A stretch of DNA of 64,000 bases from NCBI RefSeq assembly GCF_027812955.1, contig NZ_JAPYZV010000015.1:1-64000 (forward strand), read 5' to 3'. Made by a program: the position numbers and the translations under genes. Below the pieces are notes generated by a model. It was not told where the DNA came from, did not search any database, and saw nothing but the letters and a program-made list of their open reading frames with translations. Of this stretch, positions 54,574 through 59,207 are shown piece by piece. How positions within the stretch are numbered: the stretch's first letter is position 1; every line of letters starts with the position of its first letter. This stretch comes from Pedococcus sp. 5OH_020. GTDB taxonomy: Bacteria > Actinomycetota > Actinomycetes > Actinomycetales > Dermatophilaceae.

Positions 54574-55713
54574 CTACGCGATCCGGGTCCCGTTCGGCAG
54601 GCGGCGGATCGGGGTGCGGAGCCGTTCACCGGCCACGGCCGCCGACCCGGCTCCGACCAGGAGCAGGAAGCCGAGGCCATATGGCCAGACCGGCGCGGTC
54701 CCCAGTGCCTTCTCCATCGGGTCCACGCCCGGCGAGCCGTCGGCAGAGGTGCCGGTGCTGAGCTGGCATTCGTCGACGACCTCTTCCGGACCGTTGCGAG
54801 CCATCCGCGCACCCGCGCTGATCCACCGCATCGGGGTGAAGGCGGAGCTGTACGCGTCCTGGGGCCGTGGCTCCGAAGGCGCGGCGTCGGCCACCACGAC
54901 GAAGGGGTTGAGCGGGAGCATCCACCAGATGCGCTCGGTGTGGGCCACGGTCCCGTTGCGGGTGAACCGCACGCAGTCCGCACGCGTGGGCTGCAGCTGG
55001 CTTTTGCTGAGCTGCTCACGCTGCTCGGCGGTCAGGTTGGGGTCGTTGGGGTCGAGGGGCGGCGGCTGGTGCTCCTGCCACCACGAGTCCGGGAGCCCGT
55101 AGACCGTCCTCGCCTCCGTGTCGGTCACGAGGAACGCCGACAGGGCGAAGCCGATGGCGGTCCCGAACACGAGGGCGCCCATGGTCAGGTACGTGAGGAC
55201 GGCGGACGCCACCGGACGAGCCGTCAGCGTCGAGAACATCAGCCCGAGCGTGCCCACGACGGCCAGCACGAGGACGAGCACCACCAGGGACAGGGCGATC
55301 CGGGCGGCGGACACGCCGCCTTCGAACCAGGCCCAGGCCAGGAACGGCAGTGCCGCGACGAGGAAGGCCAGAGAGATCGCCCAGGCGGCGACGAGCTTCC
55401 CGAGCGCCAGGTCCCAGTGCGTGAGCAGAGTCGTCTGCAGGGTCGCGAGGACCCCGTGCTCCCGGTCGCCGTTGACCGACGTCGCGGTGAGGGACGGCAC
55501 GATGAGCATCGCGAGGCCCAGCACGAAGAAGATGACGACGTCGTACATGGCCTGTCCCGACCGGAAGCTCTGGTCGTGGGTGGCGTAGTACGCGAGGAAC
55601 GTGACCAGCGCGACCAGCAGGAACCATGCCCCGAGCACGAGCGGCCACTTGGACGTCCGCAACCGCTGGCGCAGCTCCAGGGCCGCGACGGTCCTGATCC
55701 CGTGCCAGCTCAT
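54574..55713 (-). CDS. ABC-2 type transporter permease
   Basis: 379 residues with about six membrane helices, five in the first 210 residues and one at the C-terminus. A soluble loop of about 130 residues sits between the fifth and sixth. SVNGDREHGVLATLQTTLLT is the ABC-2 coupling region after helix 2. It starts within the last four bases of the ATPase gene and forms its membrane partner. Substrate unknown; exporter type. Confidence 0.85.
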   Translation of the reverse strand: MSWHGIRTVAALELRQRLRTSKWPLVLGAWFLLVALVTFLAYYATHDQSFRSGQAMYDVVIFFVLGLAMLIVPSLTATSVNGDREHGVLATLQTTLLTHWDLALGKLVAAWAISLAFLVAALPFLAWAWFEGGVSAARIALSLVVLVLVLAVVGTLGLMFSTLTARPVASAVLTYLTMGALVFGTAIGFALSAFLVTDTEARTVYGLPDSWWQEHQPPPLDPNDPNLTAEQREQLSKSQLQPTRADCVRFTRNGTVAHTERIWWMLPLNPFVVVADAAPSEPRPQDAYSSAFTPMRWISAGARMARNGPEEVVDECQLSTGTSADGSPGVDPMEKALGTAPVWPYGLGFLLLVGAGSAAVAGERLRTPIRRLPNGTRIA

Positions 55714-56624
55714 CGCCGGTCCTCGGTGGCGGCCAGGTAGGCCGACTCGAGCGCTCCCTGGCTCGGCGTGAAGGCAGTGACCCGCACGCCGTCCCGCACG
55801 AGGTCGGCGAGCAGTCGGGCCGCGTTCTCCTCGCCGGCCACCTGCACCTCCGTCTGCCCGCCACCGACCCGGCGGGCCGGCACGTGATGGTCGGCGAGCC
55901 AGGCTGTCAGCCGCTCCGGGTCGAGGGCGTCGACCCTCCAGGCGGCCAGCGCGGTTGTGACGAAGTCGGCGTCCAGCCGCTGCGTCTCCAGAGTGCGCCC
56001 CCGGGCGACGATCACGGCCCGGTCGGCGACCTCCTGGAGCTCGGTGAGGATGTGGCTGGAGACCAGCACGGTCCTGCCCTCGGAGGCCAGGGACCGCAGC
56101 ACGTCGCGGAGCTCGATCCTGCTGCGGGGGTCCAGGCCGGACGCGGGCTCGTCGAGCAGCAGGACGCTGGGGTCGTTGACCAGCGCCCTGGCGAGCCCGA
56201 GCCGCTGCTTCTGGCCACGCGACAGCACGCGCGCCCGGCGGTCGCCCAGGTCGTCGAGGTGGACGAGCGTCAGCAGCTCCTCGGTGCGTGCTCTGGCGCG
56301 GTCCGCCGGCAGGTTGTACGCCGCGGCGATCGTGTGCAGGACCTCTCTCACGGTAAGGGCGTCCCAGGTGCCGAACCCGTCCGGCATCCAGCCGATCCTC
56401 GCCCGGACCTCGCGGGGCTGGGACACCGGGTCGAGGCCGTCGATGCGGATGCTCCCCTGGTGCGGGGCCAGGAGGGTCGCGAGCATCAGGAGCAGGGTGG
56501 TCTTGCCGGAGCCGTTGGGCCCGACGAGGGCCGTGACCTCTCCCGGCTGCGCCGACAGGGTGATGTCGTCGACCGCGAGGACGTCGCCGAACGCGCGACG
56601 CACCCCCTGGACCTCGACTCCCAT
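55710..56624 (-). CDS. ABC transporter ATP-binding protein
   Basis: 304 residues. Walker [15 protein letters not shown], signature [15 protein letters not shown], Walker [14 protein letters not shown] and switch His in VSSHILTEL are all intact. A C-terminal extension of about 90 residues is of the CcmA/NatA type used by ABC-2 exporters. It drives the permease encoded 4 bases overlapping downstream. It is divergent from lysC, with 226 bases between. Confidence 0.92.
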
Positions 56625-56850
56625 CCCGCCCCTCCCGGACTTCTGCTGGACTGGCCTGGACCGCCGTCGACTCTGCTGGACGCCGCCGATCCCTGCTCGG
56701 TCCCCTGGCCCGAGGGTAGCGCCCCCTCGTCCTCGCTACGGGCGAACCCGGTCGTCCGGCATACGGCGGGGCGATCCGGCCCTGGGACCCGCCGTTAGAC
56801 TGGCCGCTCCGCCCAGCGACCACTGTCCCCTGTTGCCCAGGAGCTCCACC

Positions 56851-58119
56851 GTGCCGATCGTCGTCCAGAAGTACGGCGGCTCGTCGTTGGCCGACGCGGC
56901 CAGCATCAAGAGGGTCGCCCGCAGGATCGCCGAGGCGAAGAAGGCCGGGAACGACGTCTGTGTCGCGGTGTCGGCGATGGGCGACAGCACCGACGAGCTG
57001 CTCGAGCTGGCCAACGAGGTGAGCCCGCAGCCCCCGCCCCGCGAGATGGACATGCTGCTGACTGCCGGGGAGCGCATCTCCATGGCACTGGTCGCCATGG
57101 CCATCGCGGACCTCGGCTACACGGTCCGTTCCTTCACCGGGAGCCAGGCCGGGGTGATCACCGACGCCACCCACGGAAAGGCACGGATCATCGACGTCAC
57201 CCCCGGGAGGGTCACCGACGCTCTCGAGAAGGGCCACATCGTGATCGTGGCCGGCTTTCAGGGGGTCAGCCAGGACACGAAAGAGATCACCACCCTGGGG
57301 CGCGGCGGCACCGACACGACCGCAGTCGCACTCGCCGCGGCGCTCAAGGCGGAGGTGTGCGAGATCTACACGGACGTCGACGGCGTCTTCACCGCCGACC
57401 CCCGGATCGTCCCAGCGGCCCGCAAGATCCACCGCATCTCCAACGAGGAGATGCTGGAGCTGGCCGCGTCCGGATCCAAGGTGCTGCACCTGCGCAGCGT
57501 CGAGTACGCCCGCCGGTTCGACATCCCCATCCATGTGCGCAGCTCCTTCTCCGCGAAGGAGGGCACCATCGTCACGGACCACCCCGAAGGAGACGCCGTG
57601 GAAGCCCCGATCATCGCTGGGGTCGCTCACGACCGCAGCGAGGCCAAGATCACCGTCGTCGGCGTGCCGGACCACCCCGGTAAGGCGGCGGAGATCTTCC
57701 AGACGTGCGCCGACGCGGAGATGAACATCGACATGATCGTCCAGAACGTGTCTGCGACGGAGACTGGCCTCACGGACATCTCCTTCACCTGTCCCAAGAC
57801 CGACGGGCAGACCGGCGTCCACGCTCTCCGCAAGGTCCAGGAGTCCGTCGGTTTCGCCTCGATCCTCTACGACGACCAGATCGGGAAGCTCTCGCTGGTG
57901 GGAGCGGGGATGCGCTCGCATCCCGGTGTCTCGGCCACCTTCTTCAAGGCGCTGGCCGATGCAGGGGTCAACATCGAGATGATCTCCACCTCCGAGATCC
58001 GCATCTCCGTGGTGACCAGGGCGGACGTGCTGGACGACGCCGTCCGCGCCGTGCACACGGCCTTCGGCCTGGACTCCACCGAGGGAGAGGCCGTGGTCTA
58101 CGGAGGCACCGGACGGTGA
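56851..58119 (+). CDS. lysC: Aspartate kinase (alpha subunit frame)
   Basis: 422 residues, the size of actinobacterial LysC. It phosphorylates aspartate, the first step to lysine, diaminopimelate, threonine and methionine. [11 protein letters not shown] is the kinase N-terminal motif, [14 protein letters not shown] and [13 protein letters not shown] the active site, and two ACT domains follow from about 265 for feedback by lysine/threonine. GTG start at 56851. An internal start at 57598 should give a separate beta subunit. The asd-type gene overlaps by four bases. Confidence 0.95.
57587..57600 (+). promoter_or_regulatory. Internal ribosome site and GTG start for the lysC beta subunit
   Basis: AAGGAGA at 57587-57593 precedes an in-frame GTG at 57598-57600, codon 250, whose product would begin [20 protein letters not shown]. 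Corynebacterium glutamicum LysC is known to be an alpha2beta2 enzyme with the beta subunit started at the corresponding point of the same gene (MEEAVLTGVA). The beta product here would be 173 residues, the two ACT domains only. Confidence 0.75.
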
Positions 58120-59207
58120 CGTCCCTCGCCTCGCGAGCAACCCGTCCGACTCTGGCCCTGGTGGGTGCCACGGGGGCCGTCGGCAAGGTGACCCAGCAGG
58201 TGCTGTCCATGCGGGCCGACATCTGGGGCGAGATCCGCGCCGCGGCCGGCCCCGAGGACGCGGGCACGCCGCTGACCGTCTGTGGCCGTGACCTGATCGT
58301 CCAGCCGCTGACCGCTGAGTTCTTCGACGGTGTCGACATCGCGCTGGTGGACCTGCCGGCGCCACTGGCCGCGCAGTGGGCCCCCGTGGCCGCCGGGCGC
58401 GGGGCCGTGGTGATCGACAACAGCTCGGCCCTGCGCTGCGACCCTGACGTCCCGCTGGTGGTGCCCGAGGTCAACCCTGCCCAGATCCGCAGCCGGCCGA
58501 AGGGCATCATCGCCAACCCTGGCGCCACGACGCTCACGATGATCGACGCGCTGGGCGTCCTGCATGCCCGGTGGGAGCTCACGGAGCTTGTCGTGGCCTC
58601 GTACCAGGCCGCGTCGGGTGCCGGCCGGGCCGGTATGGCGCGACTGTACGACGAGCTGGAGGTCGTCGCCGGACACCGCGAGCTGGGGCATCAGGCGGGA
58701 GACGTACGCCGGCTGATCGAGCACGAGCTGGGCAGTGCCTCCCCGTTCCCCGCACCGCTGGCCCTCAACGTGGTCCCGTGGATCGGCTCAGCCGCCGAGG
58801 ACGGCTGGACCTCGGAGGAGCTGAAGATCCGCAACGAGACCCGCAAGGTGCTGAACCTGCCGGAACTGCGAGTCTCGGCGACCTGCGTGCGGGTCCCCGT
58901 CATCACCACCCACTCCGTCGCCGTCCATGCGACCTTCGCCAGGAAGATCGACGTGGACGAGGCGCGCCAGGCGCTGGTCGAGGCCCCGGCGGTCGTGGTG
59001 CTCGACGACCCGCAGGCCCTGGAGTTCCCGACGCCGTCGGACATCGTGGGCTCCGACCCCCGGTTCGCGGGACGGCTGCGGCAGGCTCTCGACTTCCCCA
59101 ACGCCCTGGACTTCTTCATCTGCGGCGACAACCTTCGCAAGGGAGCGGCGCTCAACATGGTGCAGGTCGCCGAGCTGGTCGCTCGCGACCTGGTAGCGGT
59201 CGTTTGA
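58116..59207 (+). CDS. Aspartate-semialdehyde dehydrogenase homologue lacking the catalytic cysteine
   Basis: 363 residues, collinear with ASADH: nucleotide loop [67 protein letters not shown] and [16 protein letters not shown]. The active-site motif, NPNCTT in the family, reads N134-P-G-A-T-T139 (codons GGC GCC at 58521-58526). The nucleophilic Cys, which forms the thioacyl intermediate, is therefore Ala137. The frame is otherwise intact and coupled to lysC by a four-base overlap, so it is translated. It should be unable to reduce aspartyl phosphate by the known mechanism; another asd must exist elsewhere, or this one does something else. Confidence 0.88.

Follow-up and report, generated by a model that had tools for sequence, protein, structure and literature searches.

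The window analysed here, a stretch of 64,000 nucleotides from Pedococcus sp. 5OH_020, carries on its forward strand an aspartate kinase gene (lysC) and, overlapping its end, a gene for a protein of the aspartate-semialdehyde dehydrogenase (ASADH) family. Aspartate kinase and ASADH are the first and second enzymes of lysine and threonine biosynthesis. ASADHs are oligomers whose catalytic cysteine forms a thioacyl bond, and it is this cysteine that the window protein lacks. The features discussed below are:

56845..58119, + strand: lysC, aspartate kinase with AA_kinase and ACT domains (Pfam PF00696/PF22468; NCBIfam NF005153)
58116..59207, + strand: lysC-coupled ASADH paralogue without the catalytic Cys, 363 aa (translation, Pfam, AlphaFold, Foldseek)
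58242..58265, + strand: AAGPEDAG, residues 43-50, at the place of the NADP 2′-phosphate clamp; the Arg-Ser of active copies is Glu-Asp (alignment)
58515..58532, + strand: NPGATT where active copies have the catalytic NPNCTT; Asn-Cys is replaced by Gly136-Ala137
58605..58607, + strand: codon of the active-site Gln164 (SYQAASG), kept
58911..58913, + strand: codon of the active-site His266 (RVPVITTHS), kept

LysC scores 752 bits against the NF005153 cut-off of 585 and is the single lysC match in this genome at E <= 0.001; position 56845 is the first lysC codon used in our queries and is taken as an approximate start. The paralogue begins with a GTG at 58116 that overlaps the lysC stop codon (TGA, 58117-58119; a GTGA overlap) and runs without interruption to a TGA at 59205-59207, the 363 residues including the start Met, so the intact, lysC-coupled frame described in a first-pass annotation of this DNA stands. 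Both PF01118 and PF02774 match the protein, which also exceeds two NCBI equivalog cut-offs for ASADH (TIGR01296, 330.9 against 324.2; NF011456, 362.6 against 223). Its AlphaFold model, built with 41 aligned sequences, has a mean pLDDT of 91.4, and the best 50 Foldseek matches listed for the model are all ASADH or USG-1-type structures; in a sequence search of solved chains, M. tuberculosis ASADH gave the best matches. Antisense to lysC and to the start of the paralogue runs a 1263-codon open frame (minus strand, 54574-58365), probably a high-GC artefact, with a genuine gene of the minus strand in frame in its 3′ section.

Codons 58515-58532 read AAC CCT GGC GCC ACG ACG, which puts Gly136-Ala137 at exactly 58521-58526, where the replacement of Asn-Cys had first been noticed. 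The same annotation considered the NADP loop to be kept. This holds for the Rossmann motif, GATGAVG, but not for residues 45-50, which read G-P-E-D-A-G against the S-x-R-S-A-G of active copies; we take residues 43-50 to be the site of the NADP 2′-phosphate clamp. The claim that the active-site Gln and His are retained agrees with our alignment, SYQAASG, the His of RVPVITTH and [10 protein letters not shown] all being present, and all six active-site residues (R107, Q164, E234, K237, R259, H266) are found in the window protein. In M. tuberculosis ASADH, one report gives R99, Q157, E224, K227, R249 and H256 as the active-site residues and Cys130 as catalytic; it assigns Gln157 and His256 an essential part in catalysis and describes His256, Arg249 and Glu224 as important in binding ligands (PMC8648042). 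The window protein has in common with this asd_B-type ASADH (TIGR01296; M. tuberculosis Asd, PDB 3tz6/3vos) its fold, its length and the Arg/Gln/Glu/Lys/Arg/His set, but differs in having Gly-Ala for Asn-Cys and an altered NADP-phosphate clamp. Among the Foldseek matches listed is PDB 1pqp, a C136S mutant of H. influenzae ASADH whose title includes ‘Bound with Asp’, which indicates that a pocket without the Cys can hold a ligand.

The first-pass annotation had proposed looking for another asd in the full genome, and one further ASADH homologue was indeed found, on a separate contig (C27). It has NPNCTT, is 46% identical to the window protein and is separated by 91 bases from an upstream gene that presumably encodes the GTPase Era, with no lysC within the stretch read. 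The organism could therefore do without the window copy as a catalyst, and the presence of this copy rules out the possibility that the window gene is a sole asd with changed chemistry. A sequencing error behind NPGATT is likewise ruled out, since NPGAT occurs in all 11 genomes of the genus examined, this one included. In one of them (G005) the motif is present while the frame is disrupted further upstream, near the N-terminus; this disruption may be real or may be an assembly error. Named records from Phycicoccus, Pedococcus and Knoellia koreensis are related to the window protein at 84-89% identity.

We searched 186 genomes of the family, distinguishing the lysC-linked paralogue (P-type) from the second asd (C-type). 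DNA was read for 121 genomes, 112 with a paralogue and 9 with C-type copies only; of the other 65, in which residues were checked by the NPNCTTM pattern only, 62 had matches in the C-type range only and 3 had none. Residue counts take identical proteins once, ORF pieces of <250 aa were not aligned, and locus L107, being the same G005 gene as L011, was excluded. The lysC-linked paralogue lacks the Cys in 94 of the 112 genomes and keeps it in 18. An NPNCTTM asd lies elsewhere in 89 of the 94 genomes with a Cys-less paralogue, and all 50 second copies read from such genomes have NPNCTT; the five in which no NPNCTTM was found (G075, G076, G084, G094, G112) are fragmented drafts of 210-550 contigs, and G076 still has two ASADH matches. 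Where the paralogue keeps the Cys, no NPNCTTM-type second copy was found in 12 genomes and one was found in 6. Loss of the Cys accompanies the second asd, with independent events too few for significance, as an independent-pairs test yields just 3-4 pairs. The gene appears dispensable over evolution: of the C-type-only family genomes examined, 7 of 7 with a lysC match have no paralogue behind it, and the assembly of an eighth, G179, does not contain lysC.

Across the order, the DNA pattern [IV]ANPGAT matched in 19 of 396 genomes, including 12 of the 14 genomes sampled that carry the window's kind of copy (class I, below). Its 7 matches among the 362 order genomes outside the family all fall in loci without an ASADH match, and the pattern misses variants such as LANPGAT. 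Two more Cys-less lysC-linked copies were found outside the family, in G051 and G045, and with the 94 from the family they make up the set of 96 genomes used below. The G045 copy (L077, from another family) is highly diverged, reads VPGGMT and is the sole ASADH match in its draft; an active asd may be absent from that assembly.

On the best quick tree (127 rows after thinning, motif columns left out) the Cys state changes 4 times, 3 of the changes being forced by well-supported branches. The Cys-keeping copies of G087 and of G176 with L037 are placed among Cys-less ones, and the Cys-less copy of G115 among Cys-keeping ones. If the Cys was never regained, about five losses would be implied (G115, G051, g14, the NPGAT clade and the rest), several of the forks being weak. 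Class I, delimited by hand from a clade of this tree, comprises the window copy and its relatives (47 genomes, 10 genus codes, 47 distinct sequences); Gly136-Ala137 is present in 47 of 47 rows, which bears out the suggestion that GA might replace NC throughout a clade. Class II is the tandem arrangement of 21 genomes, where the Cys-less copy comes third after lysC and the active asd; it has motifs such as SPSGTT, and Gln replaces Arg259 in 16 of the 21. Class III (g62, g63, g64 and g66; 21 genomes) mostly has xPGP, has lost both Gln and Arg, and has partly lost the Rossmann glycines. Seven Cys-less copies fall outside these classes: three of g14 and those of G094, G115, G051 and G045.

Some copies that keep the Cys are altered in other ways. 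L037 (Pedococcus cremeus; score and motif as in G175, L125) has NPACAT and His for Gln164, and L119 (G176) has NPNCAT and Cys for Arg107; these paralogues represent erosion of the active site by another route, and G175 and G176 have a second asd. The lysC-linked asd reads NPGCAT in Streptomyces pini (L058) and S. barkulensis (L060) and GPDCTT in S. sp. JJ36 (L061), possibly early steps of the same process. NANCTT stands for NPNCTT in the lysC-linked copy of nine loci from Glycomyces, Stackebrandtia and relatives (L054-L056, L062-L065, L067, L068).

We found no report of a Cys-less, lysC-linked ASADH in the open-licence literature. Cys-bearing asd genes occupy the same position after lysC in Streptomyces, Actinopolyspora and Thermomonospora and in G012 and G035 of the family; they are 57-71% identical to the window protein and, unlike it, keep NPNCTT. 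The nearest analogue is E. coli Usg (usg, b2319), a protein of unknown function recorded as a putative semialdehyde dehydrogenase, which likewise has ASADH domains without the Cys and reads VPDSLTS at the place of NPNCTT. Usg keeps the His (YGHA) without the pocket Gln and Arg, whereas the window protein, to which it is 31% identical, keeps Gln164 and Arg259. The operons also differ, the window gene being coupled to lysC, while Salmonella usg is said to sit in a pdxB-usg-truA-dedA operon and is given as a putative aspartate-semialdehyde dehydrogenase (PMC6358828). E. coli Usg passes both Usg-type models (PRK08040, 683.5; PRK05671, 289.3). Membership of the window protein in the Usg group was considered and rejected, its scores of 144.4 and 156.2 lying below the respective cut-offs of 273 and 284. 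The P. aeruginosa USG-1 homologue (PDB 2hjs) matches the window model with TM 0.85/0.92, a likeness at the level of the fold. Like Usg, class III has lost the Gln, and it too lacks the Arg; Arg is replaced by Gln in QAPV of Usg and in QVPV of most tandem copies and class III. In E. coli K-12 usg (L208:3637-4650) and the g62/g66 paralogues alike, Cys and Gln are lost, Arg is Gln before Pro-Val and His is kept. These common replacements are apparently convergent.

LysC is encoded on the same strand within the stretch read for all 162 P-type ORF rows, and the Cys-less copy follows lysC directly in 75 of the 96 genomes and lies behind lysC and the active asd in the other 21. For 29 genomes with direct coupling, drawn from classes I and III and others, distances between the paralogues track those of LysC (partial r 0.50) rather than those of the active asd (0.11), a preference seen in 96.6% of bootstraps, while in the 21 tandem genomes the reverse holds, with partial r 0.54 for the active asd against 0.38 for LysC. 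Linkage alone could cause the correlation with LysC. The tandem genomes speak for the main rival to a role at aspartate kinase, namely that the Cys-less protein forms mixed dimers or tetramers with active ASADH, tuning or stabilising it, and that LysC is a mere operon neighbour. Pfam names PF02774 a dimerisation domain, and of the sites that are invariant among active copies, Cys-less rows keep 24 of 42 in this domain against 9 of 27 in the NAD domain, a difference that is not significant (Fisher p 0.083). However, the active copy is just 46% identical in this genome, the active asd is unlinked in this genus, its correlation is weak in the directly coupled genomes, and mixed oligomers leave the conservation of the class I substrate pocket unexplained. 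We consider this reading unlikely, though it is the strongest of the competitors.

The pocket itself is conserved in class I. Of its substrate-binding residues, R107 is present in 46 of 47 rows and Q164, E234, K237, R259 and H266 in 47 of 47 each, and of 69 positions invariant among active copies the class retains 54. New residues are found in 96-100% of the class at F69, G136, A137, R171, R316 and M348. Residues 47 and 48 are R and S in all 66 distinct canonical copies, as against E or D at 47 and D at 48, each in 44 of 47 class I rows. His266 extends to 95 of the 96 distinct Cys-less rows, and the Rossmann GxTG is mostly retained across them, while pocket Gln, Glu, Lys or Arg have been lost in other Cys-less classes, so that ligand binding cannot explain every class. 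The retained pocket, His266 and GxTG, together with the change of the clamp from Arg-Ser to Glu-Asp, would also suit an enzyme that carries out another reaction, on a related substrate and with no covalent thioacyl step, perhaps using NAD(H) since the clamp became acidic. Against this, no new nucleophile has appeared at the Cys site: where 66 of 66 canonical copies have C, the 96 distinct Cys-less rows have A in 60, P in 19, G in 12, S in 4 and D in 1. The constant context is, moreover, lysC. A change of chemistry, one of the branches first offered for this gene, is weakened by the variety of residues at the Cys site and by the altered clamp of the window's clade, and we regard it as rather improbable.

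Single-omega codon models were fitted to each group. In the genus of the window, the lowest omega is that of lysC (0.017), followed by the Cys-less gene (0.023; 11 sequences, 328 codons) and the active asd (0.028). Across 12 Cys-less groups omega ranges over 0.018-0.069, compared with 0.028-0.051 in C-type groups, 0.023-0.042 in Cys-bearing paralogues and 0.017-0.042 in LysC; a Glycomyces fit that returned its start value (omega 1.000) was left out. With omega fixed at 1 the fit loses 1163 log units in the window's genus and 170 or more in every one of the 8 groups tested. The low omega implies that the Cys-less gene is kept for its amino-acid sequence. Constraint is slightly weaker on the Cys-less than on the active copy of the same genomes in three tandem groups (g65, 0.068 against 0.037; g11, 0.061 against 0.044; g52, 0.044 against 0.035), though not in g49, and the tree of the window's genus is longer for the Cys-less gene (5.6) than for the active asd (3.9). 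These differences, the near restriction of Cys loss to genomes where a second asd was found, the absence of the gene from many family genomes and the disrupted frame in G005 would all fit slow decay of a duplicate made redundant by the second copy. Such decay is nevertheless largely refuted, and we give it very little credence, by the low omega in all 12 Cys-less groups, the failure of omega = 1 in 8 of 8, and derived residues fixed across 10 genus codes; for the window's own genus, where purifying selection is as strong as on the active gene, the earlier suggestion of a decaying copy is rejected. Least credible of all is retention solely for an effect on the lysC message (translation coupling or mRNA stability), as the GTGA overlap and the short lysC distances in 75 of 96 genomes would suit it but it would not hold the amino-acid sequence at omega 0.023.

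That a group of soil bacteria keeps a Cys-less gene beside lysC suggests a new, non-catalytic job, and a regulatory or binding partner of aspartokinase appears to be the best remaining of the branches originally proposed. We put at an even chance the reading that the window protein is a non-catalytic ASADH paralogue whose role is to bind a ligand of the pathway and to act as a regulator or scaffold, either for aspartokinase or for the pathway. Non-catalysis is predicted from the missing Cys. Binding without turnover is suggested by a pocket that is conserved though unable to react by the thioacyl route, and a regulator or scaffold of aspartate kinase is favoured by this conserved, unreactive pocket together with the constant lysC neighbour and the distance correlations of the directly coupled genomes. 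Whereas the Cys loss, the second asd, the selection, the conserved pocket and the conserved lysC linkage come directly from computation, we infer in what order events took place, that a ligand is bound, which partner is involved and which way the effect goes. The ancestral lysC-coupled copy would have been an active asd, as it seemingly still is where it is the sole asd found. A second, NPNCTT-bearing asd, either unlinked or inserted behind lysC, would then have taken over catalysis, after which the lysC-coupled copy may have lost its Cys in several lineages while being retained by selection. In the window's clade, Gly-Ala would have become fixed and the clamp Arg-Ser changed mostly to Glu-Asp, with the pocket kept and Arg171 and Arg316 gained. 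Its most likely action would now be to hold aspartyl phosphate, aspartate semialdehyde or some related compound unconverted, and to partner the aspartate kinase translated from the shared message, as a regulator or a scaffold. One more specific and tentative version is that the Cys-less ASADH of this actinobacterial clade is a metabolite sensor, using its frozen pocket to gauge how much aspartyl phosphate or aspartate semialdehyde is present and adjusting aspartate kinase beyond ACT-domain feedback, other lineages having become Cys-less independently.

The Cys-less gene of the window is real and under selection; Cys-less ASADH-fold proteins are already known as a kind, and the function proposed here is a prediction. 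Model-based annotation likely names such genes as active ASADH, because all 7 of the 7 Cys-less proteins scanned (the window protein, L180, L186, L173, L162, L165 and L020) pass the NF011456 equivalog cut-off. The family amounts to a natural, repeated experiment, in which one enzyme became Cys-less in several lineages, each time at this operon position and in genomes with a second copy. The role of a dead metabolic enzyme beside the first enzyme of its pathway thereby becomes testable, with possible light on Usg, the similar Cys-less protein of E. coli.
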